NCBI GenBank assembly: GCA_963965975.1
Contig: OZ014421.1
Coordinates: 2,469,001 to 2,533,000 of the forward strand
Reading direction: 5' to 3'
Origin: Xestospongia bergquistia
Taxonomy: Eukaryota; Porifera; Demospongiae; Haplosclerida; Petrosiidae
Length of the DNA stretch: 64,000 bases
Shown: positions 11,517 through 54,050 of the stretch, in pieces
How the letters are laid out: the number at the start of each line of letters is the position of its first letter
Numbering within the stretch: the first letter of the stretch is position 1
Program-made: the position numbers and the translations under genes
Notes under the pieces: generated by a model
The model's input: only the letters and a program-made list of their open reading frames with translations
Databases searched by the model: none
Told to the model about the DNA's origin: nothing

Positions 11517-11879
11517 AGTCTTCAAATAATAGTATAGTAATAAGGCAGAAAGTATATGGAGCAATAAGTAAAATGAGTACAGCTATTATGAACTGGAACA
11601 ATGGTAGATGACAATCGTTCAGATATTGTACAGTAACATAAATATTCCAGCTTGATAAGTAATATTTAATATAAGATTTGTAGTAATATGTGCGGGTGTA
11701 CTAGACCCTTTAAATAAGTGACAATAAGTTCGCTTGGATAAATGACTACCTTCTAATACTATACTTGAGTAGCCTTTTGATAGTGGAAATGAGTAATTTA
11801 GTCAGTATCTTGCTTGGCATAACTATTATCTCATACAATAAGACTCCAAACTAGTTACTAATATAAAACATAGTTGTTT
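11517..11879. other. Gap between receptor tail and COR fragment
   Basis: AT-rich sequence with no frame I can connect to a family. Confidence 0.4.
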
Positions 11880-12457
11880 TCTTATGGCAAAGCGCTAGGA
11901 ATAATGTAATATACTATGTCATCATCACGTACTTCTGCTATATTACATAAACCATTCAATAGATGTAATAGATCGATCTTTTCAAAGAGACCTGGAGCAA
12001 ATTGAATGGAAATAAGATCTAGTAAATCTTCAGTAAACAAGCCTTTTTGTCGCAGCCTACGATGAGCATCTGGAGGTATAATCTTTCCTTTTTCTAACAG
12101 CTTTTCAGGAAAGTCAACAAATAATATTCGGATTATAGAAGAGAGGCCATCTAGAAGGTACTGAGGATTTGTGAAGATAAGTTGTGAATATGTCTTAAAC
12201 TAGAGAAAGGCAGACAGTGATTTGAAAAAGAAGACAGCAGTTGATAATTGAGGCTTGTTCTTTCTTAACGTCAGTCCAATATCCTCGCATTTAGTTCTCA
12301 ATACAATAAAATGGCCTTCTATGGCTGTTTCACTTATGATATTTGACTCCATTCCAACGGATAGGGACTTTCTTCCTAATGACTGGTTTCTTATGACCCG
12401 TAACGTATGTTCTAATACATGATGACAACTCTTAAGTGTCTTCATCATCATAATCAA
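11880..12457 (-). pseudogene. COR-domain fragment of a ROC-COR-death-domain relative
   Basis: The minus strand reads KCEDIGLTLRKNKPQLS, STAVFFFKSLSAFL, stop, [23 protein letters not shown], and later IIPPDAHRRLRQKGLF, then DDDIVYYIIPSALP. This runs co-linear with the COR region of the intact gene ([43 protein letters not shown]). The in-frame TAG in the middle and another stop just after SALP break it. COR follows the ROC GTPase in ROCO proteins and mediates dimerisation, which is established family knowledge. Identity to the intact copy is only moderate, so this is an old paralogue rather than a recent duplicate. Confidence 0.75.
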
Positions 12458-28137: not shown

Positions 28138-31100
28138 ATGGATCGAAGGAGATTGGTGAGTAAAAAAAAGGAAGAATTTGTTCAGTACACTTAATACGAT
28201 TAATTAGTTTTGACTATTCCACTCAGTAATCCCGCCATATTCAATATATTCCCTCTATCTAAACAAAGCATGACCTGGTGGATTACTTTATGTTATCTGA
28301 TCTAATATAAGTAACGTATGTACTTGACCCTATAGTTTGTATATAGGTCATGTCCATATACTTAGTACAATGTACTATATTAGTAGTTACTGTACTCTTG
28401 TTATAGTATGTCTTCTATAATATTATGTCTACTGTATTATAAACTATGTTGTATATGATCTTGTTTATGTGTAATATTACATTTATTAACTTTAATATCT
28501 TTGTTAGGATAACTTACTGATTAAATCTGCTGAAAGAGGACAACTAAATGAAGTGAAAGAAGCTTTACAACAAGGAGCAAATGTCAATGCTCAAGATAGG
28601 GTATGTAAGTATGTGGCAATATAGTACTATTCAGAGATGATATTGTCTTATAATAAGAATTCTTGTCATTATCAAATCATCATAATTATTTACATATATG
28701 ATATGTAAGTGTTATAGTTATTATAATAATAATCACAATATATCCTTTAAATCAACCTAGTATAAATTAATGTGTGTGTGTTACAAAGTCTTTATTAAAG
28801 TTTAATCATGTAATTAAAACATTTCATATATAACATTTGAGATATGTCAATGAATGGATACATAAAGAGTTTACTCTGTTGCTGAGGGGTGTGGCTTTGT
28901 ATTTTATAATCATGTGTAATTTGTAGATTTGTTCTCTTGATTAGATGTGGTGTGCAAAATGTGCTTAAATGCTCACTCATTTTTTGTAATTAATGGGGTG
29001 TGGTCAATTCTTTCATTAATGATCCTTCACATTGTATTAGAGCCATTTTAGAAACTGATAGTTGAGTTTTAGGTTGTTTTATAAAAAAAATTAAGAAAAC
29101 ATTTTGCAATGATAATTTAGTCAATATAGTAATAACATGATTTATGAACATTTGAAGTTACCATGTAAGAACCTGTAGCTTCACAATGGAATGTGTAACT
29201 GTCAATCAATATACAAACAGCTAAATGACTGTATGACCATATTTGTAAGCTTAATGACTTGTGAAATTATGAATATGATTAACTCGGTATAAATATAATT
29301 ACATATATAGTAATTGACAATAGGTGTGTTTGATCAACATTGTCTTACATAGTTGTGTGTTCCTTCCTCCTTTGTATGTTTATTGGTTCATGGACCAGAT
29401 CATATATATTTATTGTTCACTGTGTGTACAGTCTATTTGTTGTCACTTCATATTATTTAGTTAATAATATGATAACATTACTTAATGAGATAATAATTAA
29501 ATATGTGATGTCATATTTTACATGTACATGTATAATTATTATATTACATATTAATATTATATCACTTATCATTATAGTCATATACATGTAAGTACACATG
29601 TATCAGTGTATGTGTGTATATAATGATTGTACTATTAATATAATTATTGATGAATAATTATACTATTACTATTATCATTATATGTAGGACAAATGGACTA
29701 GTATATTCTGGGCCTCATTTCGTGGACACACAGATATTGTTCAATATCTGTTAGAAGAAGGAAAAGCAGATCCTAATGTACCTACTGCAGTAAGTGTATA
29801 TTGGTATACAGTGTAAACTCACTATATATTAGACACCTTACAACCTTGTGTTCATAGTATGAAAGTGTTTCTTTAACACTTTGCTAATGAAATTGTACAT
29901 GTGTGTTATTGTAACATAATAAAATTAAGTTAGTGATCACGAAACAGCTTCCAAGTGAAAGTTTGTGTAGCCTTCTAATGCTAGATTAGGCAAGTTAATT
30001 CTATACTAAGTTCAATGAAGTTGTCTCTGTTGCAAACTGTTTTGTGTGACATCATTAGCTTTGAAAATTATAATGAGGTCTCCTTTACATAATATTTATC
30101 AGTTACAATATTAGATTTCCAGGTTGTATGACTATGACATGTACTAAAAACTGTCATAAAGTCCTACTTAGGATAATTCAAATGTTACAGTATGTACTTT
30201 CCATAAACTTTAACATTTTCTTTATTTTTTCATCTTTCATATTAACTACTGTGTGTTTGTATTTTCAGTCTTCATAAGAAATATACCAGGTTTTATTTTG
30301 GTTGTAGATTTGCAACCATCCTCGTTAATGGCTATCCACAAAATATATTAAATATGTAACCTTTTCAGTAAAGTATTAATTCACAGTCTTTTTTAATCCT
30401 TTAACTGTTTAGAGCTTAGATTAATTCAGTAGAACACTTGTATTTCTGTTTAACCCAGGAGGGAAAAAATTAAATGTAATCATGCCCATGGGTGGCTACA
30501 TTTGCAATAATGGTTAATGCTGTAAACATCTGTTATAGCCATTATGTGATGCTTACAAGTAAGTAATTTGTGTGACAGGGTTCTCATCTTTTACTGTGTG
30601 TTTATATTTTGATCATTCATAATAAATATAACACAATATATAATAGGTGACAAATGTTGAGACTGCAATGGAAAGAGAGAAATTATGTTTACGTGTATTT
30701 CTAGCTAATAATCAATCTATTCAACTCATATGACTAAACAGCAAAGATGTTTTCATGTAAATTACATATTGTTACGTAATGAACATGAAAAATTATCATA
30801 TAATCTTAACCACAAGTTAGTTAAAAAATAACTAAACACTCAACAGATCTTGATAACTGAATATATCACCTTTCAAATATCCTTTTAGGTCACATAAAAA
30901 ATACTATAAAGTAACTTTTTGCCTTCAAAACATAACACATATGACCTAAATAATCAGAAAGTTCCAATTGTCTTGTTGACCAAAAAATTTGAACTGACAG
31001 TAAATTCCCACACAATTAATTAGGCAATTAAAGGGTTAAGAGGGAATGGTAATGATTATTACTTTATTTTTCTCTCTACCTTTACTTTGTATGTGATACA

Positions 31101-34100
31101 ATCTATATCTATTGTGTAATTTTTATTACTAGTTAGTAACTCATATTATTCATTGATATATAAACACAATACATAACTACTATATTTCCAATACACAATA
31201 TATATAGACTTAGTCTCATATCCATTCATTCATGAAAGAAAAGAATGCCTGTTTGTGCATGCGTTTAATTATTCAAATATATTGACATCATAATTACAAC
31301 ATTTTAAAGAACATAACGGATCAATAGGCTGGGTTTATATTGATTACATTTTATCACTACATGAGTTCTCTCATTCCTGGTGGATCACAAACTATCTCTT
31401 GTTGTCCAGTTTGTCATGTGTGCAGAGATTTATTGCAAGTAAGGAGTGTTATACTTGTTCAGTAAAATTGGGATCCTAAATGATTAGGCTTCTTGTATAA
31501 CTGGTTGATCCATCATTAGAACTAAAAAATGATTTATTATCAAGACAGAATAGCTCTTCTTAGTGCCAACATGACCAAGATCGTGACACATCACGAATGA
31601 TTGGACTTGGAAATGCAATATCTTTCTAAAACCACTTGGTGACCACACTAAGACATCTTTTTTGTCATATACAGGTCAAAGAACAAAAGTGGTCTTTTTA
31701 AGAGATAGATTTAGTTTTCTTAGCTGCTATAGATTGTAAAGTAGAATAGCAGATAAGTTATTATCTGCACTACAGGTAGCTATTTTTGATAATACTTTCC
31801 AATAAATCTGTAGAAATAAACACATCTACACGGGCAGTAGTAACCATGTATTCTTTTATAGACTATGTAGTATGTGATATTATAGATATAACGATATATC
31901 TGTTCCATGTTGAGACATACTATCTAACCACACCCCCTATATTACATAAAATGTATGTTATCTTGTCTATAGTATATTACATGATATAGTTAACCTTACT
32001 ATGTAATAAACAGATCAGTACTACATTGTATATATCATATAACCTTTTATGATTATAACACGTTAGTGAATATAAACATTAGAATAATACTATTTGAATA
32101 GAAGCAGATTTTTAAATAAGTACACAGTTATCACAGTACTAATACACTGTGTGTCTATAGACAGACAGTTAAAGTCAAATTAGATTACTATAATTAGCTT
32201 AGATAAAATTTAGTACAAAAGATCTTTTTGATCACTTACATATACAATAGAAAATATACATAACTATGAGGTAATGAAGGATAGAAGGTCAACAGTGAAC
32301 ACATGACAGACAATACTTAATGTACTTTAGATGTCAATGGTTTTACTGAGTTTAGTACTATCAATAGAAAGTTAGAATAATAATATTGTGATGATGTTAT
32401 TTAGAATTGACTATAATATTATGTATGTGTTGAGTTACATCAATGGACTATTTTCAGTGACTTCACTGTTGTGCTTTCATGTTTATTAGTGAGTGTGTCA
32501 TATCATCCACACAAGCTATATTAATTCTGTGTCATATTACTGTCATGTGTAATCATTGTTTTATAGTAGATCAATTCTAGTACAAGTTTAGAATAATAAA
32601 GCTTTATGAGAAATAGTAAGAATTTTCGTTACTTTCTATTTTCAGTTTATTAGTGTTTATATAAGATAAGATAAATACCTCACTTAGAGGTAAGCAATGT
32701 GATTCATTATTGAAATTGAATTGGAAGTTTATTATTTTAACTACTGATACACACAACAATCAATGAATATTATTACTGTTATCACAAATGTTTTTATTTG
32801 GATATGATTTATATAATAATGTATGTTATTAGTTATTTTTTCCGCCTAGCATACTGCATGTGTTGGTAGTGCTAATATTGTTTTGGACAACATATTGTAT
32901 ACATATATTATATTGGTATGTCTATTTCATAATTACTTTTTACAGCTTTAGAGTGAAAGAAATGAAATTAATCCACATACACAACTACTAATGTACATAG
33001 CAACCAATAAATATCATTACTTTTACAGTGAGCACTATCATTTGAGTGTGAAACTTTTAAGTTCTGTAATTAAAGAAAACATAGTACTCGAAAATCTTTG
33101 TTGTAATAATAATCCAGTCCATTTCATCATCAATAGTGTCTTCAAAGAGTGTTAGAATATATTATGAAGTAACATTTTGTTTTTGTTTGTCATTAGTGTT
33201 GCATTGTATATGCTGATAACCAGTAATTTACAATATTTGAATTGTTCTACTAATACAATAATAAATTAAGGATAAGGTCAAGATAAAAGTGTCACTCTCA
33301 CTTTATTAAACAACCAGTATTGTTGATCAATACTAATTAATGAGCATTAGTTATTATTTGTATATTGTGTAATAGAAACATTATTATCACAGTTTTTATG
33401 ACATTATAAAATGACCACATGACAATTAGAGCTCATATAATGACAGTAGTCTCATTACATATGACATAACCTGGTAACTCATTACTGATTGGAGGGAATT
33501 GAAATCATTTACTGTTCCCATTATGAGTGATTAATGTATATACCTGGCAAAAATACAAATTCAACTATTCTAGAATACTTTCTACAATTCTTTGCACTTA
33601 TCGAAGCTATCATATAACACTGTTTGCTGACTTTTCTATTAATACTGTGTCTTTAAAGTACCTTTAAGGGAAAAGCTTTTCTAGTATATTGTGATGGTTG
33701 ATTAGTGATAGTGTATGTAAATTAATAATGAAATATAAGAAGTCCACAATATTCACTGAACATTGAGACAAAGAATGGAAAGTTTCTTTAGCTTTTATGA
33801 AATGATCATACCTTTTCCAAACAGAAATTACATCATATTATATATAATCATTAAATTCTATGAAAATGAAAATACCCAGTCTTTATTTGACCAGTATATT
33901 AAGTACATGTACATGTTATATACATGTACATAATGTTTAAGATGATAACATGTAATTAAATGTCCTCACTTAATGTGTATCTATAATTACATATTTTTCT
34001 TATTAATTGCAGTTCGGAGATACTCCACTAATAATAGCAGCAGCTAAAGGCCACTTAGATGTTGTTGCCATGTTAATTAAACATGGTATCAATACCCACC

Positions 34101-37100
34101 ATACTGATAAGGTTAGTAATATATGTGTGTATATTGATGTAGCCTCTAGTTTATACTCTGTTCTATTTAATGTATATAAAATGAACAATAACAGTCTAGC
34201 ACATATTATATAAATTAATAAAATGTTATGAAATGATGACTGTTCACTGTTTATTCAAAACCATTTCTCCTATCATTTCTTTGTAATATCATAAACATGT
34301 TGTAATGAAATGCACTAAAGTGCTTAACCTCGCTGCAGTCTTATCCAGAGACTTCCTTGTCCTCCTCAAGTGACGTAATCTCACTTGATGCGCAAAATGA
34401 TTATTGATGATTCAGCATTTCTCTTCAATCAAAGGGAAAAAAGCTTTGTCTTTTAGTGCATCTGCTGGGTACTTTGTACTCTAATTGACAAAAGGTCCAA
34501 TACTTTCCAACTTCTTATTAAAAGTTAGTAATTCTCCAATGGTAGCTATGGTGCTAGTATTTTTAGTTCATGCTCAATGTATTGACAAAGGTAACTGCCA
34601 AAAGTAAGTAAAACTGTCATAACTTTCCAAAGAAGTATTTTTTCAAAAATTTGCACTTTAAAAAGTTAGAAAATGTCATAAGCTGTATGCAGGAGATTTT
34701 TATTGAATTTTCAAGTCTTCACTGAAAGCTGTGCTTTTTTTCAAAGGTTTTTCAGACTTCTAAAGCTTTTTGTTCATTTGTTGCTCTTTTTGGAAGTATT
34801 CTTAATTAAGAAGTGCAGAAGTTTTGCTATCGCTCACTAGAGTTTGGTGGCTACCTGTGCCATATTTGCTGAGTTAAAGCAGTTCAAAGCCCATTTGCCC
34901 GGGTAACAAACAGAGAGAGAGACACACACACTAACAGACTACAGAAACCCTCGATATGCACCCATGCACAGCGAGGTTAATAACATTATGTTACATTGAG
35001 GTTATAAAGAGATAGAAAGTGACATTGCTAATTAAATAGAAATGAAGATATGGACACATTTGTGACCGGATTTGCAAAAAGGGACCACTTCTGTCAAAAA
35101 CAAAAATTTCAGTATGGACAGAAAAAGTGATGGTTTCAATCTTTTGGAGAATTTGAGTTAAACCAAAAAACGAAGAGAATAGTTCCTGACAGTCATTTTG
35201 AAGCGTCTAAAAAGCGAAAGTTCTTTCTAGCTTTGCACGTAGAAGCGTTCGCGTTATCAAATATTAGTGTACGGGATGCGGGGGTGGAAAATTAAATTCC
35301 ACTTTTCTCAAAATTAATTTCTGGTAGTAGCCACTCTATTTCCGTTTATATCTCGTGTCTTGAGCAACGCATGCATTTATCCAAGGTATCAAACAATTCA
35401 GAATTATCTACACTTTAAAATGGTATGAAAAAGTGAAAATGACAGAAATGACTCAAGTGGTCCCTTTTTGCATATCCGGTCACATTTTTATGTTTTGTCA
35501 CAAACAGCCCTATTTGTAAATTTATCAAGGGGGATTATTGTTTCAGTGTTGTAGTGCACAAGTTAATAAATTTCAAATGTGTCATAGTATGTGAAATAAC
35601 AATTTGAATGTAAGAAAAGTGTGGAGACAAATTCAAACAATATCAGAATTCCAAGAAAACATTGCATATCAATTGAATGCTATTGCTAGCTACATTCTAG
35701 TACTACTTAGAATAGAAAGGCTACAATCAATACACAGTACTAGTATTGTACAATATAGGACCAGAATACAATAGTAAATATAGTTGATATGTCTTGCTGA
35801 AGTGGACGTTGTGGTTCTTCTTGTGTTCTGATATAGTGTGGTGTCTAAATTATGAGTAAGAAAGAAAACAATACTAACTAGAATGGAGTCATGCTTTCAA
35901 CTATATCCTTTCTGTTTAATGTAACTTAATATTGATTTCACTTTCCAGTAGTTAAGTCTTAATGATATAGGCAGACCCACTTGAATCATTAAAACAGTTG
36001 TTGTAATAATAGATGTATTTGTTTATGTTCATTATTTGTAAATTTATGTTCTCTTTTTTGTAAGTTATGTCATTTTTTACAAACTTTTACAAGTTATGTC
36101 AGCCTTGAATCTGGTATTTCCTGTACAACTTCACTGCATCTCTATAGTGTTTTCATAAATATAATACAATCAAACAACAACTATTTTAACAATAAATGTT
36201 GAGATCAGAAACAATATACAAACATAAGAGAGAGAGACAACACAACGACAGAACAAAGGATGAACAAAAATATAATTATTATGTTTAACCACAAAACACC
36301 ACCCTATAGAAATTATAAATCTCAATGATCACATGACCCTCTATTTAAGCATGTACATAAATAACTAAATTGGAAATACAACAAAAACAATCAACTAGTA
36401 AACATAACAATACACCTTTAGCTTAAACAAACATAATAAAGTAATTTATGTCCAATTGATCAGGTTTGAATGTCATAAGGTTATTCCATTGATTAAAGAA
36501 TTCTGCTAACAACAACCAGTCGACAACTGTGTTCTAGCATCATTTGAGAATGGATACAAGAACAGATGATCTGAATTACAGACTTGACAGACATCAATTT
36601 CAATATAATAGAGTCTCATATGATTGTAATGCCTACCATGGACTTTACCTTTTTATAATTTAGTCTTTTTAGAAAGTGATCCCAACAATTCAGTGATCTT
36701 TGACAAACACTAAATTTACTCACTTTCAAGTACAATGTTTACTATACTGATCATAAACATTCTTTTGAGTTAGTTGATGTTATTCTACATAGCTCTCAAT
36801 GATAGGAAATAAAACATCTAATAGTGGTCAAGTGACATTTGGGAGATCGAAAGGTTGTAAGGTTGTTTCGTTTGCGGAAGGCTCCATACGGAGCCCCACC
36901 CAATTTCATTGCAAAACGCGGAAGGCTCTTTTAGGCACCTGGAAGTATTATAAAACATTCGCTTTTTTGGATCAATTTTACTTTTGAAATTGCTCGTTTT
37001 CTAAGCTCGAATGATCCTGAGACATTGTTACAATTGATGGAAGAAATAGATAGCGATTTTAGCTATTAATTGTGTAACATTATGTAGTATATTGAGTACA

Positions 37101-40100
37101 GCAATATTATAATATGAATAAACAATAACTAGAATAATGAAGCCTTCTCACAAACCATACAACACACTTATATATACACAACCATACAGACCACTTAGGG
37201 GTCCTGACCACAAAGGGTATAATAATATTCATAATATATAATGCTACACTACAGTACACATTACTAGTTTTGTCACTGAAGTACTGATCCATTTGATTGG
37301 GAACCCTCTGGCATTTGTTCCTGCACCAAGGGTGGGTCATTTGAAGTTGTAGACGAGTTGTTATATGGGTAAAAATATGTGTCATCTGTAAATGTTGTGC
37401 TTGACACAATTCGACTTCGCATATGTCTCTTCACCTCGATACCATTTGGTATTTTCACTAAATATGACAGTGGACCCAATATTTTAATTACAAGACCTTA
37501 AATCCATCGACCTCCATCACTAAAGTTACGAATATACCCTTTGTCCCTCTCTTTAAATGAGGGTTGAACTCGAGCATGTTGATCATGTGAGTATGTCTGT
37601 CTCTGAACACTGCTCTCTACTTTCTTTTGTAAATCAGGATGCAGTAAGTCGAGATGTGTCTTGAGCTTTCGTCCCATTAACAATTGAGCTAGAGATGTTG
37701 TTGAGGTAGAATGAGGAGTGGTCCTATAATTGAATAAAAATCTTACTAGTTTTGTCTTCAGAGTTCCAGTAGTTTGACATTCCATGTTTTAAAGATCTGT
37801 AGAGCCCTTTGTGCAAGTCCGTTAGATGACAGATGGTATGGAGCTACCTTGACATGACTGATTGCATTGCTGGCCATGAAATCTGCAAATTCCCTACTAG
37901 TGAAAACTGACCTGTTATCACTGACTATCTTCTCAGGAAGTCCAAACGTTGAAAACAATTGGAGGTAAGGTCCGGCATAATCAATGTGTAGCCTGGACCA
38001 TGGTCTTGCTGGCCACTCCCATGGGTGGAGTAAAGGTTGAGGTGGTGAACTTCTGCTCAACTGTCACACATCACAACTACTAACTTTCTTTTCTATGTCA
38101 TCATCTAGTTTCGGCCACCAAACATAACTTCGTGCTATGGCTTTCATCTTGACAATGCCAGGGTGAGATTGGTGAATTTCATCCAAGAAACGTTCCCGCA
38201 GCTTTGGTGGTATTATAACTCTGGAGCCCCACAAGACACAACCATCTATAATATTCAATTCAGAGTGTCTCCTTGAATATGGTGTAAATCTTCTCCTCTC
38301 CCAATGTTATTTTTCCAACCTTGACTGACTAAAGTGGCTACTTTGGATAGAATAGGATCAATTGGAGTACATGATTTAATATCAGATACTGTAATAGGTG
38401 ATGAATTTAGTATGTCTACCAAGTGAATAATTTCAGGGGGGATGGGAACCGACTTTAAAGTATCAGGTAATGGTGATCTACTCAGACCATCGGCATGTTG
38501 TAAATCTTTACCAGGCTTATACTGTACTCAATAAGTGTAACTACCCAAAATTAGGGCCCATCTTTGGATCCTAGCAGATGCTAATTGTGGGATACCACGA
38601 TGTTCTTCAAATAAATGCATTAATGGCTTATGATCAGTATGTATTATAAATCTCCTACCTGAAAGGTATTGATGGAATTTCCTGACTCCTATAATGATGG
38701 CTAATGCTTCTTTGTCGAGTTGTGAGTAGTTCCTCTCGGTTGTTGATAGCATCCTCGATGTAAAGGTGATCAGTTTTTCTTGTCCGTTGTCTAAACGATG
38801 AGATAGGACAGCCCTACTCCATAAGGAGAGGCGTCACAGGCAAGTACAAGTTCTTTAGAACTGTCATAGTGAGCTAACAGTCTGGGTGACTTCAATAAGT
38901 CTTTAGCTGACTCAAAAGCTTCTTGCTGTGCTGACCCCCACTTCCAAACTGAGTGGCAGTGTAACAATGAATAGAGAGGACTCAGGACTGTTGCTAGATT
39001 GGGTAGGAATTTCCCATAGTAATTAACCAATCCAATTAAAGCCTTTAATTCTGAAATATTCAGAGGAACTGGAGCTTTTGTAACAGCTCTGACCTTCTCT
39101 TCTGTTGGTTCAATGCCTTGATTACTATTTTCATGTCCTAAGTATTTGACCTCTGGTGCTAAAACATTCATTTTTCTTTCTTCAACATCATTCCAGCTGT
39201 CTGTAACCTCTTTAAAACTTCTTCTACATTTGCAATACGCTCAGCTTCAGTTGACCCAGTCAGTAACACATCATCAATATACACAATACGTGTTTCAGAC
39301 CTTGTAACAAATTCTCCATTACTCGTTAGAAAATGGATGGCGCTGAATTCACTCCAAAAGGCAGTGTAGTGTAATGATACAATACTTTCATCATGTTAAT
39401 CATCACAAACTGCTGAGACTCTGGGTCCAGTTGTACCTGTTGGTACGCTTGGCTTAGGTCCAGCTTCGTAAAGGAAGACCCTCCAGCTAATGTTGCCAAT
39501 AGATCATCGACTTTCAGTAGGGGGTACGTGTCTAATTTTGCTACACGATTGACTGTCTGTTTATAGTCCCTCGCATAATCGAATAGAGCCATTATGTTTC
39601 AACACTGGCACTACTGGAGCTGCCCAGTCAGAAAACTGGATTCTCTCGACTATGCCTTCTTGCTCCAGTCTATCTAGCTCTGCTTCGACCTTCTGTCTCC
39701 AAGCATAAGGAACAGGACGTGGGCGGTAGAACCGAGGTGTGACCACTGGGTCTATGTGTAGCTTTGCAGTTACTCCTCTCAGTGTGCTCAATCATCCTTT
39801 GAACACTTCACTGTACTTATCAATCACTACCTGAATATCTTCTCTTGCTTCAACTTGACCAATAACTTTCCAATTCAGTTTCAGTTCTGACATCCAGTTT
39901 CGTCCTAACAGGCACGGCCCTTGACCTTTAACCACTAATACTGACAACTTTCTCTCGTAATCTTCATACTTCACAGTTACTACACACAAGCCTAATACTT
40001 CTATCTGATGACCAGTATACGATTTGAGCTTAATGTCCGAAGGCATTAAATTTAGCTTGCCTTTTGCCTCACAGAGTTGATTATATGTTGACTCACTGAG

Positions 40101-43100
40101 CATTAACACTGCTGCACCAGTGTCAACCTCCATAATCACTTCCACTCCATTAAGACTCACTGTTACTCTAATTGGTTTGGCTCTCCCTGAAGTAACATTT
40201 AACAGGGTGTATGTGTCTTCTTGTTCATCTGTCTCTGGTTTATCCTCTTGAATATGATGTGCTCTCTCTGTCGATTGTCTACCTCTGTTCCCTCATTGAC
40301 AATCTTTATTTCGATATACCCGTGCTATATGTCCCTTTTACGACAGATATGACATAGTGCCTCTCTAAAACGACACTCATGATTTTTATGCTGTCCACCA
40401 CAACGATAACATGATCCTCCCTTAGATATTAGGGGTTTGGGGCAGGCATCTCCCCTTGTATGTGCTTGAACTCTCTGTACTGGAGTAAACTTCTGGTCAC
40501 CTGATTGAATGACCTTTGAACTGTGGTCAGCTACCTCCATGCCTTGACTTATTTCTAGTGCTTTTTCTAAAATGAGGTCTGACTCTGAAAGTAGCCTCTT
40601 TTGTATGCCAGGATGATTGATCCCACATACTAACCTGTCGTGAAGCATGTCGTCTAGCATGTCTCTGAAGTTACAGAACTCCGACAGCTTCCGCAGTTCT
40701 GCTATGAAGGTTGATACAGATTCTTCTTGTTTACGTGTAAGATGATTTTAATTCATCTTTAATTACCATAACTGCAGCCATACATTTAATTGGCCAAAGA
40801 AAAGCAACATTAATTAACTTTAATATTAAGATGATCAACTACTTACATAGTTTTAAAATAGAAGATAAAAACAAATGTCAACCTGTAGATATTTTCAGTG
40901 TGCTTATCATTAACTCTGTCAGTCACTTAAGGGTAGCACTGCAATGAATATATCACATCATATTAGACCAATTTATACATATATATGTTGAGTAAATGTT
41001 AAATATTCTTTAACCTACACAGTACCTTAAATTACATAGTTTAGCACAGAAGAAACAAATATAAGCATATACTTATTAATGAAAGTTTACAGAAATCACT
41101 AGGAAAAACAAACTGGTTCATTACAACTAAAAATAAGCCAAGTAGACAACTTGGCCTGTCATAAGGTACAAGTGCATTGACAAATTCTCTTATGCCAGGT
41201 TCATTTTATTTATTGTCTATTTTCTTTATTTTAGATTTCTTAGTACTAATGCACACATTTTTTGTAAATACAATCCTGTGTGCACAATACAAATCTTACA
41301 TCACAAAGCACATTTCTGTATCAAAACTAATACTGCTATATCAGTGTGTTTGTAACCTCTCCTTTTTCACAAATTGATTTTTACAAAAAAAAATAAATTA
41401 TAATAATTACCACTTTCCCTCTCATACTACATTATGACTAATAAGACAATTAATATGAAATTATCTAACGTAGTATCATATCTGACTATTGTCATGACTA
41501 TGTAACAATATCTACAATAGTTTGTCATGTAAATATATTTTATAGTTAATAAGTAAATGTAAATTGAAACACAATGACAAGATATCTGAATGGAGACAAT
41601 ATCTAATTTGACAAACACTTGTAACTTGTGTGGATATTAATTTTATATAATTGATTTAACTTTCCTACATCATTTGAATGATATTAACCCTTAGATGATC
41701 ACTGTTACAAATTAGTGACATGATCACGTTCATTAATAACCACTGTCACTAATTAGTGAACGAGGAATGTTAATTAAAAGGGACTTAGATAATGATTTCA
41801 TAGAAGTTGTTGTGTTAACATTAATGACCACTAATACAAATCAAAACTTACTGTTTACTATTTATAAAGAATGACTAGTTTAGTCACTGAAGTACTCTTT
41901 CTATTTTAAAAAATGGAAGAGGTTCTCTATTATGTTAATTATTCCTGTATTAAGACAGATTGGTTTGATAAGAGTTTTATAATGTAGTATATTAAGTCTA
42001 CAGTAGTAGCTATATATACATGAACATAACTGTATAATAATTGTACCATTGACAAAATCACATAGTGGATATTTACATGAAATCATTAAAATTATGAATG
42101 TATTATGTGTTACTAGTACATTGAGTTGAAATTCATCTATTATAGTGTGTATTGTGTATGTATTACTTCTTTGTTTTATTACTACAGGATGGCTGGACTG
42201 CATTGCATTATGCTGCATTCAATAATCATCCAGAGATCATTAAAATATTAATTACTAATGGTGCTGATATTACTACTGTCGATAAGGTATAAAAGATTAT
42301 TTTTTGATTTTATCAAATATTCAAAGATCATAGAAAATATACTAAGTATGATATTAAAATGTTATTATAGATCAATGAGAATACTCTTTGTATTATCTGT
42401 TATTGTTTGTTAAATATAAAGACTGGTATAATCACTATTTTGTATAACTATCCTATTCAGTTTTTTAGTTATAAATTACAGCTACATTGTGTTAGAATCA
42501 TAATTAATTTGGTATCTAGGAAGTACAATATTACAATTTTTTAATACAAGGTTTATATAAAATGTCTTTATACCAACTATTTGAATGAAACTAATGGCTT
42601 GACACATTTTCTCATTTTGAAGTTGCATCTCAAAAATCTCAGTTTTGTAAACATACAGTTGCTATACATGCATATCTATTCTATATGTATGCAAAACTGT
42701 TGTTTGATATATTTTAGTAGCAGTGTCTTAACAAATTAGGTCACAAATGTTTTGCAAATCAAGTCACATATATAATATTTCATATTAATAAAAATATTAT
42801 GTTTGGCTTTCTATTATTATATGTATGTTCCACTCAGAATGGTATGACTGCAGCTGAATTAGCTCAGAGTAGAAGCCTTCGAGACATTGCAAAGCTAATT
42901 ATAGATGAAGGTATTTATTTCATAATTTGGGACAACAACTTTATGAAAACTTCATTTTCCTTATATAGTTTATATTATTGTAGAACAGTTTTATGTAATG
43001 TACTAACTAGTTTATAGATTATGAGCTTCTGTAATTACTTCTTTGCATTGTTTTACTTAAATATACTATGTTAAAGACTTATTACTTATAACAACACATT

Positions 43101-46100
43101 TAGAATAATATAATTATTCTGTAAGTCTATGATATTACTTATATAGCAACTACAGTACTGCAACCAATTACACCCAATTCTTAAAATAAATGAATATCAT
43201 TAATAGTAATATGTGTTGGTTGTTACAACATGATGTTAACTTTTTGTTATTGCTTACTTTAAATGTCAATAGAGCAATGGAATCAGTATACATTTCCGTA
43301 TAATACGTTATGACTATGGTCCATGTGAGAGTAGATTGCACTAAATAAGAATTTGAAGTTATTGCAATTAACAGATTTTGCTATTACAATATAATATTTG
43401 AGACATAATTGAAGGAGGTTTCTTAATTAATAAATAGTAATGTAGTTACTTCTATAGGCTAATATTCAGTAGTTGATTTCATAAGGATCTCCAATCTTAA
43501 GACAAATATATATATATATACATATAAAACAGTACACTAGCTGATTGCATTTATTAAGTTATTAATATGATTTGTATGTTAACATATTACTAACACAATG
43601 CATTCTTCTATCATTATTCTAATATTCATTTCTTTCTTTATCACAGCATTACAACGGCTTTTCAGACGTGGCATCCACAAAGGCAATGTTCAATTAACTA
43701 ACATGAGACTTGTTTTAATGGGACCACCTTGTGTTGGTAAAACAGCATTCAAGTCACTTCTTTTCAACTGGAGTGCACCTAGATTTCACAATAGTACAGC
43801 ATTAGCGACAAGACCTGTACGAGCTTTAGAGAGGGTGACAGGACGCGATGAAGGAAAAATATGGGAAAGAGTTACCAGTCTTGACTTGCTGAGGATGCTA
43901 TCAGATGCTATTCATGCGCTAGAAGAAGATTCACAACATGAAACTGATGATCCTATTTCAGAAGATGCTAGTGAAACAATTATATCTACAGAATCACCTA
44001 AAGAGACCACTACTGGTGAATTTAGCATCACTGGATTGACAAAGCAAAATGTAAAAAGTTACAGTGCTGCTTTACCTTTGCCTACTGCAGTAATGTCAAC
44101 TGTATCAGAAAAAGATTTCAATGAATTGCATTCTGATATTAATACTACTATACAACCCAACCAACCAGAGAAGGAAACCAAGGTTGTCACTACCATTAAT
44201 ATGTCTTCAAGCAACACAACAATCTCATCAAACGAAGCTACAAGACCAGTAATTTCTAGTGCCAGTCCAGCTAAAGAGTTGTCATCTTACGATATAGACA
44301 TGAAATCTGATAAATATGCTCAGGAATTAGCAAAAGTTTTTGCACAGCACGAAAAAACCCAAAATCGCCACAAAGCCACATGGATAAATGTTCTTGATAG
44401 TGGTGGTCAACCACAATTTGCTGATGTATCACGAGCATTTATTCGTGGTAATACCATAAATGTAATCTGTACAAAGTTAACAGAAAGCCTCTTTGAAAAG
44501 CCTCAGTTTTGCTACTCACTGAATGGTAAGTTACTAAATCAACCCAGTGAGTTACAGATGAACAACCTACAACTGATAGAGCATTTTGTGCATTCAATAG
44601 TTTCTTCTAAAAATGCAATAGTTGTTAAAGGAAAAAAAAGCTTACCACTTTTTATGATCATTGGCACTTGCTATGATAAGATTAAGGGTGTTAGAAAACT
44701 ATTCTATGAGTCATTAGAATTTAAGAATGAGCAACTACTATCTACTCTTAGTGAGTTTCATGATCATTTTATATTTCCTAATGATGATCCGAAAAAGCTC
44801 ATATTTCCTGTTGATAATCTTTGCTGGTGGAACCGAAAGAAAATATCATCTTCTCTTCGACAGCATATTATGTCCTATCAGAAAGAAATTGCCATCGCTT
44901 CACCAATACCAGTACGTTGGTATATGTTTGAATTGCGTCTGAAAGAGGAAGCTTCACAAGAGGATCATGGAATAATTTCATTAGAATCATGCTGTGGTAT
45001 TGGAGTTAGTCTTGGCATGGATGGAAATGATGTCAAGAAGTCATTATCCCACTTACATACCATGGCCTTGTTCCTGTATTTTCCAATTGTTCTTTGTAAC
45101 GTAATCTTTACAAATCCTCAATATCTTCTTGACATGCTCTCAGCATTGATACGTGTGTCATTTGTAGACTCCTTGGAGGATATTTTACTTGAGGGTAAGT
45201 CTATAGCACCAGACACTCAGCGAGCATTTCGTGAATTTGGAGTATTTGAAGAATCTTTACTTGATAATGTTTGCCTACCATTTGTTTCTTCTCTTTTTAC
45301 AAAAAATGCCTTTTTAACGTTGCTTCGTTATCTGCATATTATTACTCCACTCTCAACAAATGATGGTATTAAGCGCTATTTTATGCCAGTAGTATTACCA
45401 CCTGAACAGGCAAAAGAGGAAGACGTAGTTCTTTTTCAAAAGAAATGTGATCCAATGATAATAACATTTGGAAGTAAAGTTGTTCCTCAGGTGAGTAATG
45501 TAACTGTTGTACACATCTACAATAATTGCTAATGTTTAAAGCTTCATTTATAAACTTTACCACTTCTGCATGTTTATTCTGTTCATAATAGCAACATTTT
45601 TCATTGTATAGGGTGTATTTACAGCTGTAGTGGTAGCTCTTGTTGACAGAACAGAAAGTCCACAATTTGATATAGATAGTTGTTCAATAGGATTTCCAAG
45701 ACAACTTCGTTATGCTGTTTTACTTTATTCTGAAGATTTATTTGGTTCTGTCCTATTAGTTGATAGATTCTATTGGATTGAGGTCTACTACAATGGCCCC
45801 ACAAAAAATTGTTTTAAATTGCGCAACGTGCTCTGTGATGCTGTATCAGCTTGTGCTGATATATTAGCATATGATGAAAGGGCACTTAAATCTGAAGTAA
45901 CAGTCCCGTGTAAACAGGAACACAGTGAAAGTGGGCACAAGTTACATCCAGTTATCATATCATGGGATGATGATCCACCTTTGTTAAGATGCAGTATTGA
46001 AAAAAAGCGCCCAACACTTGAATTAACTGATGAAAGACAAACCTGTTGGCTAATTGGTGAGTTTAAAGATTACCTCATCTTTATCTGAAGTTGACATTTG

Positions 46101-47503
46101 TTTGTCTTAATGTAGATACTTGCCCTGTCATTTCTGGAGACAGATCGACTGAACAAATTGGTATGTGTACTTACCAATTATTTAGCTATATTAATTGAGT
46201 TACTTTTATCTTTTACTAACAGTATCTGTGGATGAGTCAGCTAGCCCTCCAAAAATAAGAACTGTTACAAGTGTAAAATTTGGTTAGGGTGACACATGTA
46301 CAGATACGTACATAGTATTTATAATTATGCAAACAGATAACATAATAGTATCTATGAATTTAATTTCTTTTTTTAGAGGCTAATTCAGTAATTATCCCAG
46401 TGAGCTCAAATCTACCAGAGGGACCTCTTAGTAAGTGACATATTGTAATAAGAATTAACTCTAGGATGACATTTTATATATTGTCTATAGATGAATGCCA
46501 CCTTGTTGCCCTATTAAGGTTTGCAAAGGAAATTGAAGACTGGGAAATGTTAGGAGTGTATTTGGGAATTAAAAATGCATTACTTAAGGAAATCAAAAAG
46601 AACAACCATCATCAGTCTGGACCTGCTCGTAAAGACATGTTAGTGACATGGTTAGATGGAGGGGAAGCAACTAGGACAAAATTTATTGAAGCTCTAAAAG
46701 ACATGGGTCACATTCACATTGCTCAAGAAATTGAGTCACAAAATGGTAATAGTAAAAATTTATGTTTGCATTTCTAAACAGTATGGTATATATAAATGAA
46801 TGCTTGGCAATGATTGTAATATAATATAGTATTCTAATGCTCTGTGAACTTTAAATTTTTGAGAAACTGTAGCTGACATTTTTTTTAAGAATGTTGTACT
46901 TATGTCAAGTTGAAGGTGTCAAGTTGAATATCCCAACAAGACACCTTTACTGTTTGCATTATATTTCATTACAGACACTACTGGTACTACACAAGTTGAA
47001 GCTAAAAATATAGATCTAGAAAGGAGTAGTAAAGATCCTGGTAAGATTTATAGACATTCAATCAAAATTATTAATACCATATGTACAATCCATTTTCATA
47101 TATACTCTGTGGATAAAGCTAATTTTTATATCTACTTCTCATTCTATTCTTACTATTTAGTCATGTTTAATATATAAAATAAGTTATGTGACCTGTGTCA
47201 TTGCACATTTTATATATTACTGTAGAGAGTAAACCAGAGAAACTAGACCTCATGCGTCTACTTAATCCAGTTGCATATAACTGGAGACAGCTTGGAGAGG
47301 CCCTTGGTATCAAGTATGGAGATTTAGAGTCTATTTTAAACAATAGATTTCGAGATCCTGATAGACTGTCTGAGGTTCTTCAATTGTGGTTTCATAAGCA
47401 TCCATCTCAGGTGACATGGGAAGCTATAATAACAGCTGTAGAGTTACCTCCAGTCAATAATCCCTCAGTGGCTGAAAATATGCGAAAATTTCTTTCTAGT
47501 TGA
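28138..47503 (+). CDS. Ankyrin-ROC-COR-double death-domain protein (14 exons, 1,176 aa)
   Basis: Exons: 28138-28155, 28508-28600, 29688-29789, 34013-34111, 42188-42286, 42838-42910, 43647-45490, 45612-46056, 46116-46160, 46223-46282, 46377-46430, 46491-46745, 46975-47040, 47226-47503. All borders are AG/GT, phases match, and the sum is 3,531 nt with one terminal TGA. Order of parts: MDRRRL, five ankyrin repeats (one per exon), a ROC GTPase with P-loop GPPCVGKT and DSGGQ, a COR region, then two death domains. By family knowledge, ROC-COR forms a regulated GTPase dimer, death domains recruit adaptors or caspases, and ankyrin repeats bind partners. The likely setting is a cytosolic sensor or signalling scaffold. 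LRR and kinase domains are absent. The 8-kb fifth intron holds transposons. Exon choice was made by eye, so small extra exons cannot be excluded. Confidence 0.85.
29790..34012. other. Intron 3 of the main gene (4.2 kb)
   Basis: AT-rich intron. It holds a relative of the RecQ-carrying TIR element at about 31225-31870. I see no other coding segment. Confidence 0.55.
31225..31870. mobile_element. Degenerate relative of the 19-kb TIR element
   Basis: The left side has AAGAATGCC, TGTTTGTGCATGCGTTTAAT (compare AGAACGCC..., TGTTTGCACATGCGTTTAAT at 19190-19225). The right side has ACACGGGCAGTAGTAACCAT (compare ACGTGTGGAAGCAGTAGTTACCA at 19660-19685). The interior is mostly different, with traces such as GTGGATCACAAACTATCTCT that I cannot assign. 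It is probably another internally rearranged copy in the intron. Confidence 0.4.
34324..34980. mobile_element. MITE with TTAA-bounded ends (piggyBac-like)
   Basis: The ends are TTAACCTCGCTG (34324-34335) and its exact complement CAGCGAGGTTAA (34969-34980). TTAA at both borders is the hallmark target duplication of piggyBac-type elements. The remaining inverted repeat is CCTCGCTG. At 657 bp with no open frame it is non-autonomous. It lies in intron 4 of the main gene. Confidence 0.6.
35061..35484. mobile_element. Short TIR element (424 bp)
   Basis: The left end TGTGACCGGATTTGCAAAAA, GGGACCACTT pairs with the right end, whose complement reads TGTGACCGGATATGCAAAAA, GGGACCACTT. That is 29 of 30 bases. 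The inverted similarity continues more loosely (TCTGTCA...). No coding capacity. The target duplication is not clear (T-rich flanks), so I leave the superfamily open. Confidence 0.75.
35485..37067. other. Rest of intron 4 before the Gypsy element
   Basis: This holds a dispersed repeat at about 36160-36320 that recurs at 54300-54470. A GC-richer patch at 36835-36945 includes GGAAGGCTCCATACGGAGCC, which contains a small hairpin. No gene is recognised. Confidence 0.4.
37068..37265 (-). repeat. Candidate 3' LTR of the Gypsy element
   Basis: Read on the minus strand, the segment after the integrase frame starts TGTACTGTAGTGTAGC and ends near ATAATGTTACA, so it has TG...CA ends. It contains an AATAAA-like signal (TGAATAAACAATA on the plus strand is its mirror position). 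The matching 5' LTR is missing, so the call rests on position and ends only. Confidence 0.3.
37273..40740 (-). mobile_element. Decayed, 5'-truncated Ty3/Gypsy retrotransposon
   Basis: On the minus strand the order is gag end, protease, reverse transcriptase, RNase H, integrase. Gag (40325-40660) has zinc-knuckle cysteines [13 protein letters not shown] and CHIC. Protease (39792-40160) has the active-site motif DTGAA and LLGRNW. RT (39170-39791) has [25 protein letters not shown] and, in another frame, YIDD. RNase H/connection (38528-39171) has [12 protein letters not shown] and [10 protein letters not shown]. Integrase (37500-38258) has [18 protein letters not shown] and SDNRSVF. Many stops and frameshifts separate the parts. 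The integrase core appears internally deleted between DYAGPY and LQLFSTFG, and gag lacks its start. The element is therefore dead. It sits antisense in intron 4 of the main gene and explains most of that intron's extra coding potential. Confidence 0.85.
40741..42187. other. 3' part of intron 4
   Basis: AT-rich. Portions recur downstream of the gene: 41390-41520 matches about 55540-55660, and 41996-42187 matches 53634-53825. No further exon is seen. Confidence 0.5.
43647..45490 (+). other. ROC-COR exon of the main gene
   Basis: This single 1,844-bp exon holds the whole GTPase and most of COR. LRRLF-type basic lead-in [13 protein letters not shown] comes first, then [20 protein letters not shown] (G1), a long Ser/Thr/Glu-rich insert of about 150 residues, [20 protein letters not shown] (G3), and [13 protein letters not shown] in the place of the TKxD motif (G4). 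Here the G4 motif reads CYDK, an unusual but not unheard-of form in ROC domains. COR follows with [24 protein letters not shown] and [18 protein letters not shown]. The insert between G1 and G3 is odd for a small GTPase fold and is likely disordered. Confidence 0.85.
46491..46745 (+). other. First death-domain exon of the main gene
   Basis: The exon encodes a compact six-helix-type death-fold segment: [51 protein letters not shown], then [17 protein letters not shown]. The W..LG..LGI...L..I pattern and the late MLVTWL are typical of death domains. Copies of this exon, truncated, lie at 9009. Confidence 0.7.
47226..47503 (+). other. Second death-domain exon and C-terminus of the main gene
   Basis: The last exon reads [59 protein letters not shown], and ends KFLSS before TGA. 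This is a standard death-domain signature (W..LG..LG....L..I and L...L..W.......TW..L..A). AATAAA lies at 47574-47579 as a likely polyadenylation signal. Confidence 0.8.
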
Positions 47504-49619: not shown

Positions 49620-51950
49620 ATTTCAGTTGAGGTTACGCTGGATGACAGAGGTGTAGACAAAAATTGAAAAAGAGAAAATAGATTACTTCTTTGAGACCGG
49701 ATGTGGGTGTGGGTCATATAGGAATGGTCCTTGTAGCAGAGCCTTCTCAGTAGACCACTACGAATCTATTAGGAGTCAATGTCAAGCATTGGATCATTCG
49801 ACACTTAATTTTGTTATTTTTGGACAAATAATGGCTAGCATATCGACATCTACAACAATTCAACATAGAGGACATCAGGTAAAGGACAGAGAAAAAAAAA
49901 ACACAGTTCATGCATCAAGGTGTTAAGGTAGTGTAAGCACAGCTTTCAACAATTGACTAACAGAATATATCTTATAGATTTGTAGGACAACTTTTCTATT
50001 CTTGCATAGCATCAGTAGAAAGAGGTTAGATGCCATCAGGCTAAGTTATCTCAACTACGGATTAAATACAAGAATTCACAGCAATGCTAATCGGCTACCA
50101 CACAATGCATACACAACAGAGGAACTGAAACATACAGTCACATTCATAAAAAACTATGCTGAAACTCATGGTATTTTACTACCAGGGAGAATCCCTGGTT
50201 ATAAAAGGATAGACATACAACTGCTTCCGACTCACATGACAAAAAGAGGAGTATGGAATGATTACATTCGTGCAAATGGACCATTATCAAGACGTATAGC
50301 TGGATACATGAGCTTTATCAAAATATGGAAGAAGATTGCTCCTCACGTTGTCATCACAAAACCGAGATCAGATCTCTGCTGGATATGCCAGAGAAATTTT
50401 GTTGCAATTACTCAGGCTGCTAATTCATCTGAGTCTCACAAACTACAGATAAATATGAATGATAATAACAAAGGTAATAATGATAATTTATACTAGATCA
50501 TTGATTCAGCAAAGGCTCACATTGAGCAAGCAACAATTGAGAGAAATTTCTACAAAGCTGAATGTGCTAAAAGCAAAAATAACATTGAACAAGGGTTCAC
50601 AATTGATGAACTAACTTCCTGTCTGCCTCCTTTTAGAACCTCCATTACTAACTGTACAAAAGACATAACTCTTCATCTAAGTTTTGATTTTGCACAGCAA
50701 ATGCATTATCCAAGCAACCCTTACAACCTGGACCAATTTATTTCCTAACACCAAGGAAGTGTGGGCTATTTGGTATATGCTGTGAGGGAATACCCAGACA
50801 GGTAAATATTAATCATACAATACTTACATAGCAGGCAGTCCTTTTCTAGGTTAACTACTTGATCGATAAATCTTGTGGCACTGGTAAAAGATCGAACACG
50901 GTTGTTAGCTTGTTACATGACTTTCTCACTAACTTTGGGCTCGGAGAGATGCACCAGTCTATGCATGCTGACAACTGTATAGGACAAAACAAGAATAACA
51001 CAGTTATTCAGGTAAAATAATAATTATTAAAATAATCATCATTATTAATATTAAATTTACTTAAAATAGTATCTGTGTTGGAGAGTGATGGTTGGTCTGA
51101 GCAGATCCATTATTCTCTCATTTCTGTTCAGAATCACTGAACCTTTTGACAAAGACCCTTCCTGGCTTCTCAGCAACAAAGTAAAACTGATGATATGGCT
51201 TGATGTTTGGGACCTTTTTGAAATGTCCATCCTGTGTTCCTACAAGTCTTGTTTCGTTAAGTGCTGCTGACTCGTTAATCATTTCAACAATGTCTTGCAG
51301 GCATTCGACATTTGTTTTTTTTTTGTATTTTTGTTTGATTAGTCCAAAACCTGCATCTGGTTGATCTCAGAAAGAGTGATTTATCTTGGAGCCCATCATC
51401 AGCTCAATTACCACGTGTAGTTCATCCAAAGGGATTGTCTGAGGAGAGGCAGTGGTATCTTTTCGAAAAAATCCGACCATTTTGTACTTCTTTGAGATCA
51501 AAGAATCTCACTTCTCCATGCACAACCTACTGCATTAAGACCACAAAATTGCTCTACTAAACAACACACCTCCTCTATACAACAAGATGTTGAAGCTCCT
51601 CTAGACTTACAAAGTAAAGAATCAACATCAGGTAAATCAATAATAACATATTTATGGTATTTTAGATTCCCCTCCAAGAAAGCGATTAAGAATCTGTGGT
51701 AATTGTGGTATTGCTGGCCATAATCGAAGATCCTGTCAAAAGAGCAACTAATTTCATTGCTTCATCATTACTGGACATTTCAACTTATAATATTCCTGTT
51801 AACGGCTCTTTTCAGAAGCACCACTCCCATTCTTTACAATGGTTCTTTTCAGAACCAAAAACAATTTTTAACAGTTCTTTTAAGAACCGCCATTTACAAC
51901 AAAAGATTTCAATTGTTACATTAAAAGTTAAGCAGGAATGAGAAAATGAG
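49620..51950 (+). pseudogene. DUF7869-type transposon protein, decayed
   Basis: Exon-like pieces follow the order of a family I know from sponges and cnidarians. A Cys-rich start (decayed, about 49690-49760) is followed by GQIMAS-type sequence. From about 49990 comes FLHSISRKRLDAIRLSYLNY, RLPHNAYTTEELKHTV, GILLPGRIPGYKRIDIQLLP, SDLCWICQRNFVAITQAAN. After a stop near 50495: TIERNFYKAECAKSK, LSFDFAQQMHYPSNP, a frameshift, GPIYFLTPRKCGLFGICCEG, VNYLIDKSCGTGKRSN, then MHADNCIGQNKNNTVIQ and YLCWRVMVGLSRSIILSFL. The end (about 51668-51745) has a CCHC knuckle CGNCGIAGHNRRSC. The ADNC.GQNKNN segment is the DDE-like core signature of the family. Several stops and shifts kill it. Identity from memory of the family. 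Confidence 0.65.
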
Positions 51951-53633: not shown

Positions 53634-54050
53634 GTCTACAATAGTAGCTATATATACATGAACATAGCTTTAGAATAATTGTATCATCTTCATGACATCA
53701 AATGGTGGATGTTTACATGAAATCATTAAAATAATGAATGTATTATGTGTTACTAGTACATTGAGTTGAAATTTACCGTATAGTGTACATTGTGTATGTA
53801 TTGGTTCCTTGTTTTATTACTACAGTATGGCCGGACTGCATTACATTGTGCAGCCATGTCTAATAATCCAGAGATCATCAAAATATTAATTCCTAATGAT
53901 GCTGACATTACTGCTGTAAATAAGGTATGAAAGATTATTGTATGTCAAGTAGTCAAGGATCATAGATAATATGGTAACTATGATATTAATAGGGTATTAT
54001 AGATCAATGAAAATACTGTTTTGTCCTTTTATTATTATTTGTTAACTGTG
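53634..54050 (+). pseudogene. Duplicate of main-gene intron 4 end, ankyrin exon and intron 5 start
   Basis: The segment is a diverged copy of 41996-42420. Its exon, 53826-53924, is 99 bp with intact AG and GT borders and an open frame, [32 protein letters not shown]. The source exon at 42188 reads [32 protein letters not shown]. No other exon of a second gene is seen around it, so it is an orphan exon, probably not expressed on its own. Confidence 0.7.

Follow-up and report, generated by a model that had tools for sequence, protein, structure and literature searches.

The locus and its gene model

The window, by which we mean the whole stretch of 64,000 nucleotides analysed here (C11:2469001-2533000, in a genome of 146.5 Mb and 21 contigs), carries on its forward strand, at positions 28138-47503, a gene of 14 exons that add up to 3,531 bases, or 1,176 codons with one terminal stop (Table 1). 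The exons were found by eye and then checked by script: all 13 introns have an AG acceptor and a GT donor, the exon phases agree, each of the five ankyrin repeats occupies an exon of its own that is entered in phase 0, and exons 9-13 have phase 1 at both ends. An earlier note on this DNA, which had joined the same 14 exons into one 1,176-codon frame without a phase clash, is borne out by this rebuilding and by the paralogs. The short exon 1 (six codons from ATG to the GT donor) recurs in all 11 of the other array units examined, there being 12 others on the map described below; exons 2-4 of seven other genes have AG and GT at the aligned borders in 20 of 21 exons, and the remaining one, a class-B exon 2, has its aligned donor shifted by one base and an in-phase GTAAGT three bases further along; the other copies of exon 5 are open with AG/GT borders in 39 of 39 cases; and exons 5-14 align with the paralog C11:2844316. 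Because the start exon, the borders and the open exon 5 recur in paralogs, the 14-exon model is not a product of chance, and the same exon order across array units supports it independently of RNA data. As read from the DNA, the gene looks intact and appears to encode one ankyrin-GTPase-death-death protein.

Table 1. Features of the gene and of the retrotransposon in its intron 4, in window coordinates
Feature	Position	Strand	Evidence
Exon 1: start codon, MDRRRL	28138..28155	+	Six-codon counterpart in array units
Exon 2: ankyrin repeat 1	28508..28600	+	28 other genomic DNA matches
Exon 3: ankyrin repeat 2	29688..29789	+	14 other genomic DNA matches
Exon 4: ankyrin repeat 3	34013..34111	+	12 other genomic DNA matches
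Broken, probably Gypsy-type retrotransposon in intron 4	37107..40747	-	Separate open pieces
Exon 5: ankyrin repeat 4	42188..42286	+	Sister genes have up to six detected copies of this type
Exon 6: ankyrin repeat 5, short	42838..42910	+	Exon model, Pfam, paralog alignment
Exon 7: split ROC-type G domain and COR-A	43647..45490	+	hhalign to Pfam-certified ROC-COR protein
G1 (P-loop) motif GPPCVGKT	43721..43744	+	G25, P27, G30 and K31 at least 90% conserved in 22 sequences
Linker in G domain, about 143 aa, poorly conserved	43934..44362	+	22-sequence alignment, step counts
G3 motif DSGGQ	44396..44410	+	Invariant in 22 sequences
Presumed G4 motif GTCYDK (assignment inferred)	44663..44680	+	G339, T340 and D343 invariant in 22 sequences
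Exon 8: end of GTPase-COR module, expected place of COR-B	45612..46056	+	Exon model, paralog alignment
Exon 9: linker	46116..46160	+	Exon model
Exon 10: linker	46223..46282	+	Exon model
Exon 11: linker	46377..46430	+	Exon model
Exon 12: death domain 1	46491..46745	+	Pfam Death 37.5 bits; 57 other genomic matches
Exon 13: linker	46975..47040	+	Exon model
Exon 14: death domain 2 and stop codon	47226..47503	+	Pfam Death 32.7 bits; structure model

The DNA around the gene fits the earlier description of an intact gene amid decayed DNA, since two stretches of it, 8556-9157 and 11879-12331, are remnants of sister genes. The former, on the forward strand, comprises three pieces in scrambled order (8556-8766, 8901-8951 and 9020-9157), namely a death-domain-2-like piece with a stop followed by an exon-11-like and a death-domain-1-like piece, the last of which is 85% identical over 46 aa; the latter, on the reverse strand, is a decayed piece of the COR region with stops, whose residues are closer to class B. 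The retrotransposon in intron 4 contains an RT/RNase H piece that exceeds its Pfam cut-off and an aspartyl protease piece near its own. The window also holds a 172-aa open frame at 49978-50493 (+), with no Pfam match at E 0.05, and an open frame at 10325-10672 (-) with a sub-threshold immunoglobulin-like domain.

Domain organization and membership of the ROCO proteins

In a Pfam search of the window protein, the ankyrin region reaches 106.4 bits with Ank_2 and 96.1 bits with Ank, and each death domain, taken by itself, exceeds the Pfam Death cut-off of 22.6 bits, exactly where the earlier note had placed it. That note had proposed a profile search for Ank, Roc, COR and Death; Ank and the two death domains are recovered, whereas Roc remains sub-threshold (15.8-17.9 bits against a cut-off of 27) and neither COR nor NACHT has a Pfam match in the window protein. 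LRR and kinase families are likewise absent from the 1,176 aa at Pfam E values up to 10, as had been claimed.

The evidence for the GTPase module comes from relatives. Among 22 sequences of the exon-7 family, matches at E<=1 are found to Ras in 18, to Roc in 17 and to COR-A in 10, and their alignment conserves the G1 and G3 motifs; one family member, L043 (31% identity to the window gene), scores 36.6 bits for COR-A, above the cut-off of 35.3. Another protein of the same genome, L034 (C5:2276128), exceeds the cut-offs of both Roc (42.8 bits against 27) and COR-A, and the 22-sequence profile aligns with it by hhalign at a probability of 99.5% (E 1.4e-22) over 337 columns that run through its COR-A. 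The corresponding comparison with the LRRK-like L029, an LRR-ROC-COR-kinase frame elsewhere in the genome, is collinear, yet reaches no more than 2.6% (E 0.018), which, like the low Roc score of the window copy, speaks against membership. The window protein is assigned to the ROC-COR proteins because these relatives (L034, L043 and the 22-sequence profile) match. COR-B has no Pfam match in exon 8, and hhalign gives it probabilities of 0.7% and 2.1%.

A phmmer search of the GTPase-COR region against PDB gave 0 matches and the corresponding profile 7 weak ones (small GTPases and LRRK1, best E 0.19), and a single-sequence AlphaFold prediction of exon 7 has a pLDDT of 32.6 and no usable fold. The single-sequence model of death domain 2 has the six helices that befit the earlier assignment of a death domain to 47226-47503 (pTM 0.65), and its best PDB match by Foldseek is a chain of a Fas/FADD death-domain assembly (TM 0.74, E 0.03); ankyrin death domains are also among the best matches, none of which has an E value below 0.001.

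Exon model, Pfam and hhalign together yield the domain order ankyrin-ROC-COR-death, and the conserved start exon sits just before the ankyrin exons, with no N-terminal Ser/Thr kinase. Judged by its sequence and its relatives, the window protein is a ROCO protein of DAPK1-like order, without the kinase and with two death domains. Of the architecture proposed earlier (ANK x5-ROC-COR-death-death), the order and the exon ends stand, as does COR-A by way of relatives, and COR-B was not found. Three other readings were rejected: that COR is absent, as the negative Pfam result in the window copy is set against COR-A in relatives and the alignment with L034; that the protein is a relative of LRRK, which the missing LRRs and kinase contradict; and that the ankyrin exons are part of a different gene, given the shared exon order of the array units and their conserved first exon. 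The LRRK proteins, with which the earlier note had compared the product, give way to DAPK1 as the nearest domain order. A PADLOC search returned one weak Csx3 match (E 0.0019), judged irrelevant.

A large family and a tandem array

The earlier note treated the gene as single; it is in fact one of about 90 GTPase places. A search of the genome with the GTPase-COR region, in which 91 of 565 candidates were scored, returned at least 107 pieces that merge into at least 90 places, several of them with stops, and the idea of a single unusual gene was rejected on this ground. The GTPase family is a large repertoire with a conserved switch. By comparison, COR-A occurs at no fewer than 146 places of the genome (150 of 171 candidates scored) and NACHT at 95 or more (103 of 156 scored). 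Together with a low GC content and the size of the genome, the abundance of death, ROC-COR and NACHT domains suggests an early animal, probably a demosponge. DNA searches, counting the window gene, place exon 2 at 29 sites, exon 3 at 15, exon 4 at 13 and exon 5 at 40 at least (40 of 43 candidates scored).

When all DNA matches to exons 2-5 are mapped together with a choice of 32 GTPase places, of which 31 belong to the 90 and one is a P-loop place, 13 tandem units appear on the forward strand of C11 between 2.357 and 3.183 Mb. Their order is exon 2-3-4-(5)n-GTPase, with n ranging from none to six detected copies and with some exons undetected in some units; the DNA search missed some ankyrin exons that are visible to a protein search (C11:3070499). 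A GTPase is present in 12 of the 13 units, eight of class A, including the window gene, and four of class B; the other seven class-A GTPases are 77-94% identical to that of the window gene and those of class B 46-47%. A single exon 5 is present in the window gene, whereas the two units that end at 2776024 and at 2937944 have six copies each. A GTPase follows within 70 kb downstream on the same strand at 22 of the 29 exon-2 places, compared with 1 of 29 for the opposite strand and 15 of 29 upstream on the same strand, the latter control being high because the units stand in tandem.

The pattern is broken by an extra, decayed GTPase with stops at C11:2783814 and by an extra intact exon-5-like exon in the window, at 53827-53924 (+), 3' of the gene. 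Beyond the window, at C11:2540084, lies a relative of death domain 2 with a stop, which possibly belongs with the latter exon to another, broken unit. At C11:3094699-3128801 a unit has ankyrin exons 2-5 and no GTPase detected downstream. Within 6 kb downstream of the 90 listed GTPase places, both death domains were found at 15, only the first at 20, only the second at 17 and neither at 38; these counts are rough, as they use 46 of 58 matches to domain 1 and 51 of 150 to domain 2, some of the latter chosen for their nearness to GTPases.

Mosaic construction of ankyrin, GTPase and death-domain modules

The segments of these genes differ in apparent age. In all 15 class A-class B pairs examined, dS in exons 2-4 is 0.03-0.20, compared with 0.06-0.19 in 10 pairs within class A, and exon 7 of the same A-B pairs is saturated at a dS of at least 1.93 (two of the three class-B exon-7 sequences being partial); similar ankyrin fronts are therefore joined to two old GTPase classes. 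A class-B clade of three genes is not rejected by the tree of exons 2-4, which lacks resolution (p 0.13).

The segments of the window gene were also compared with those of its 14 most similar paralogs, by pairwise dN/dS values that ignore shared ancestry and with death-domain dS values above 1 taken as near saturation. Against C11:2408857, dS is 0.15 in exon 7, 1.88 in death domain 1 and 1.83 in death domain 2; against C11:3182482 the values are 0.19, 1.63 and 0.97, and against C11:4512741 they are 0.41, 0.29 and 0.95. At least one death domain is far older than its own GTPase in 10 of the 14 paralogs; C11:2844316, C11:3070499 and C11:2364507 are concordant across segments, and C1:26663005 is distant throughout. 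More than one breakpoint is needed because the two death domains of C11:4512741 disagree. Judged by the dN/dS ranges of exon 7 (0.28-0.46), exon 8 (0.15-0.29), death domain 1 (0.13-0.36) and, for 11 of the 14 paralogs, death domain 2 (0.12-0.37), the death-domain tails look like old, constrained alternatives, and fast replacement change as the source of their differences was rejected on the death-domain values (0.12-0.37, with dS above 1 near saturation).

Introns and trees point the same way. C11:3182482 matches the window gene over the full length of intron 6 (84% identity) and of intron 7 (94%), whereas introns 8-13 hardly align; the alignment is lost within intron 8 in four of the 12 genes compared (C11:3182482, C11:2776024, C11:2408857 and C6:7345518). 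The grouping of five genes seen for death domain 1 is incompatible with the exon 7+8 data (15 genes, p 1e-46), and the seven-gene GTPase grouping with the death-domain-1 data (15 genes, p 0.018); the death-domain-2 data (12 genes) reject both (3e-5 and 4e-106), the groups having been chosen after the segment comparisons were seen and the five-gene group having a support of 86/93, not starred, in the death-domain-1 tree. On these comparisons of sequence segments, the family is one of mosaics, in which similar GTPase-COR exons are followed by death-domain tails that are old and unlike one another.

Variation and possible positive selection in the ankyrin repeats

The number of ankyrin exons varies among copies and the GTPase is conserved. 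For the surface of the repeats we used positions 2, 3, 5, 13, 14 and 33, which we take, from designed ankyrin proteins, to be the ligand face; the positions were fixed before the exon-5 copies were fetched and after the alignment of exons 2-4 had been seen. Of this choice, PMC8683736 confirms no more than that defined surface positions form the binding site. Among 38 distinct exon-5 sequences, dN is 0.266 on the ligand face and 0.108 at other positions, with a dS of 0.200, so that ligand-face dN exceeds that of other positions (P 0.022) and is not significantly above dS (P 0.26); entropy is 1.24 bits on the predicted face and 0.56 bits elsewhere (p 0.019), and position 10, outside the ligand-face list, is highly variable at 2.15 bits.

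For exons 2-4, in up to eight genes, dN is 0.319 on the ligand face and 0.085 elsewhere, with a dS of 0.104, and in a codon bootstrap the ligand-face value exceeds both that of other positions (P 0.0002) and dS (P 0.001); taken exon by exon, the comparison with dS gives P 0.18 for exon 2, 0.002 for exon 3 and 0.049 for exon 4, and whole-exon dN over exons 2-4 is 0.115 (P 0.34 against dS). Replacement and silent steps number 52:11 on the ligand face and 103:47 in the rest of the ankyrin region (Fisher p 0.026), and in five class-A genes 81:94 in the GTPase core (exon 7 without the linker) and 73:32 in the G-domain linker, codons read as stops being left out of the counts. Positive selection on the predicted ligand face is suggested, and not proven, by these values.

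Interpretation and alternative explanations

We judge it somewhat probable (roughly 55%) that the window gene encodes a ROCO-type intracellular receptor, DAPK1-like in order and without the kinase, with a variable sensor and an exchanged output. In such a receptor the ankyrin solenoid would bind a variable ligand, which might come from microbes, be a host protein under guard or mark self; this would alter the nucleotide or dimer state of ROC-COR, and the change would free or cluster both death domains, which as a pair could nucleate a death-domain assembly with adaptors and so set off inflammation or cell death. Valency would come from the serial arrangement of two death domains, and a change of tail would redirect the output, so that copies would differ in ligand (ankyrin number and surface) and in recruits (death-domain tails), with the switch kept alike. 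GTP-dependent switching is established for other ROCO proteins (PMC6337361). The receptor reading is weakened by the sub-threshold Roc score of the window copy, by Ras matching as many relatives as Roc does, by the failure to find COR-B, by a ligand-face dN in exon 5 that does not significantly exceed dS, and by the decay of several family members. The earlier suggestion of a sensor parallel to NLRs draws indirect support from the large family, the ligand-face replacements, the conserved GTPase and the mosaic tails, and the patchwork family may be a little-known repertoire with which an early animal senses, from within, infection or foreign tissue.

The mosaic pattern could alternatively reflect gene conversion, by which old genes would have come to share a homogenised version of the large GTPase exon, rather than an exchange of death-domain tails, and we put this a little short of even odds. 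The GTPase-COR region is a long and highly similar tract, and the similarity of introns 6 and 7 in C11:3182482, lost from intron 8 onwards, is what conversion would leave; conversion of the GTPase alone is nevertheless insufficient for C11:4512741, whose death domains disagree with each other, and it does not account for ankyrin fronts that are common to different GTPase classes. Relaxed constraint on the ankyrin exons, with positive selection playing no part, is in our judgement unlikely: the similarity of whole-exon dN and dS in exons 2-4 and the non-significant excess over dS in exon 5 speak for it, yet every other exon-5 copy is open with intact borders, and the changes concentrate on the ligand face in exons 2-4 and in exon 5, in the latter by entropy as well as by dN.

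Two further alternatives concern the function. A receptor for self and non-self rather than for pathogens, whose ankyrin face would read self markers and whose death-domain output would kill or wall off foreign tissue, would leave the same signatures in family, mosaic and ligand face, and sponges are among the organisms with allo-incompatibility (PMC8195603); one assembly does not separate allorecognition from pathogen sensing, and we hold this variant to be distinctly unlikely. Smaller still, in our estimate, is the chance of a DAPK1-like signalling scaffold with a conserved developmental or stress role, its copy number being a by-product of duplication in a repeat-rich region: it agrees with a domain order that is that of DAPK1 minus the kinase, with the constraint on GTPase and death domains, and with the retrotransposon in intron 4 and the relics nearby, but the excess of ligand-face replacements, at least 90 places and mosaic modules are unexpected for a fixed function.

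Comparison with known systems

Most knowledge of ROCO GTPases comes from LRRK2 and DAPK1, and in the latter ankyrin repeats precede ROC. DAPK1 represents the third ROCO group, with ROC-COR, a C-terminal death domain and no LRR (PMC6337361). The window protein shares its ankyrin-ROC-COR-death order, and the family differs from it in having no kinase found, two death domains, its 90 or more places, a long G-domain linker and a variable number of ankyrin repeats; from LRRK the window protein is set apart by the lack of LRRs and of a kinase after COR. The LRR-ROC-COR genes of brown algae, proposed immune receptors, combine one repeat per exon with shuffling of LRR exons and diversifying selection (PMC11378527); they resemble the window family in the ROCO core and the exon-wise repeats, whereas the latter is animal, has ankyrin repeats in place of LRRs and carries mosaic death-domain tails.

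Among early animals, Trichoplax has at least 17 ROCO genes with LRR, TPR, CARD and death domains (PMC11378527), which likewise unite ROC-COR with death-fold domains, and that source, as far as its text was accessible, describes no array, mosaic or ankyrin diversification for them. Sponge NLRs (NACHT-LRR with death or CARD domains) parallel the window family in repeat sensor, nucleotide switch, death-fold output and family size, in contrast to which the window family has a ROC-type GTPase instead of NACHT, a C-terminal output and ankyrin repeats. The 357 TRADD-N proteins of Amphimedon, mostly with N-terminal death-like domains and often with ankyrin repeats (PMC8195603), are similar as an expanded group with death-fold domains, which stand at the N-terminus, and they have TRADD-N where the window family has ROC-COR. 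A 2026 study of sponge NLRs has COR in a figure legend, and the main text in its accessible form is without the whole words 'ROC' or 'ankyrin' (PMC12909245). A search by title and abstract, with most subscription journals outside its coverage, found no account of such an array or of a sponge ROCO expansion.

The protein itself is a kinase-less form of a DAPK1-like ROCO protein with two death domains, and the surprising part is the array and the mosaic build; mosaic change at the signalling end, and not just at the sensing end, would to our knowledge be unusual among known receptor families. We propose tentatively, with the odds against it, that early animals have a further large class of intracellular receptors, of ankyrin-GTPase type, besides NLRs and TRADD-N proteins, whose repertoire would be built in the germline from three exchangeable cassettes, the ankyrin sensor, the GTPase class and the death-domain output. 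If this is true, recombination would drive the evolution of sensing and of the choice of death adaptor, with the switch held constant. That ROCO and death domains form a mosaic family whose ankyrin front varies points to an ancestral part in recognition and cell death, and the family supplies ready-made material, similar switches coupled to unlike sensors and outputs, for studying how ROC-COR relays binding to a death domain.

Related loci elsewhere in the genome

Two trios of GTPases, at C2:13602253, 13905706 and 13989814 and at C6:1256331, 1260493 and 1265207, have near-equal scores within each trio, the latter with the same kinds of stop and a spacing of about 4-5 kb, and would be very recent duplicates or assembly artefacts. 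A second ROC-COR group consists of L034 and L052, which are 45% identical, and of 14 COR-A places at C10:1.40-1.70 Mb; for at least four of these 14, a Death match is listed no more than 3 kb downstream.
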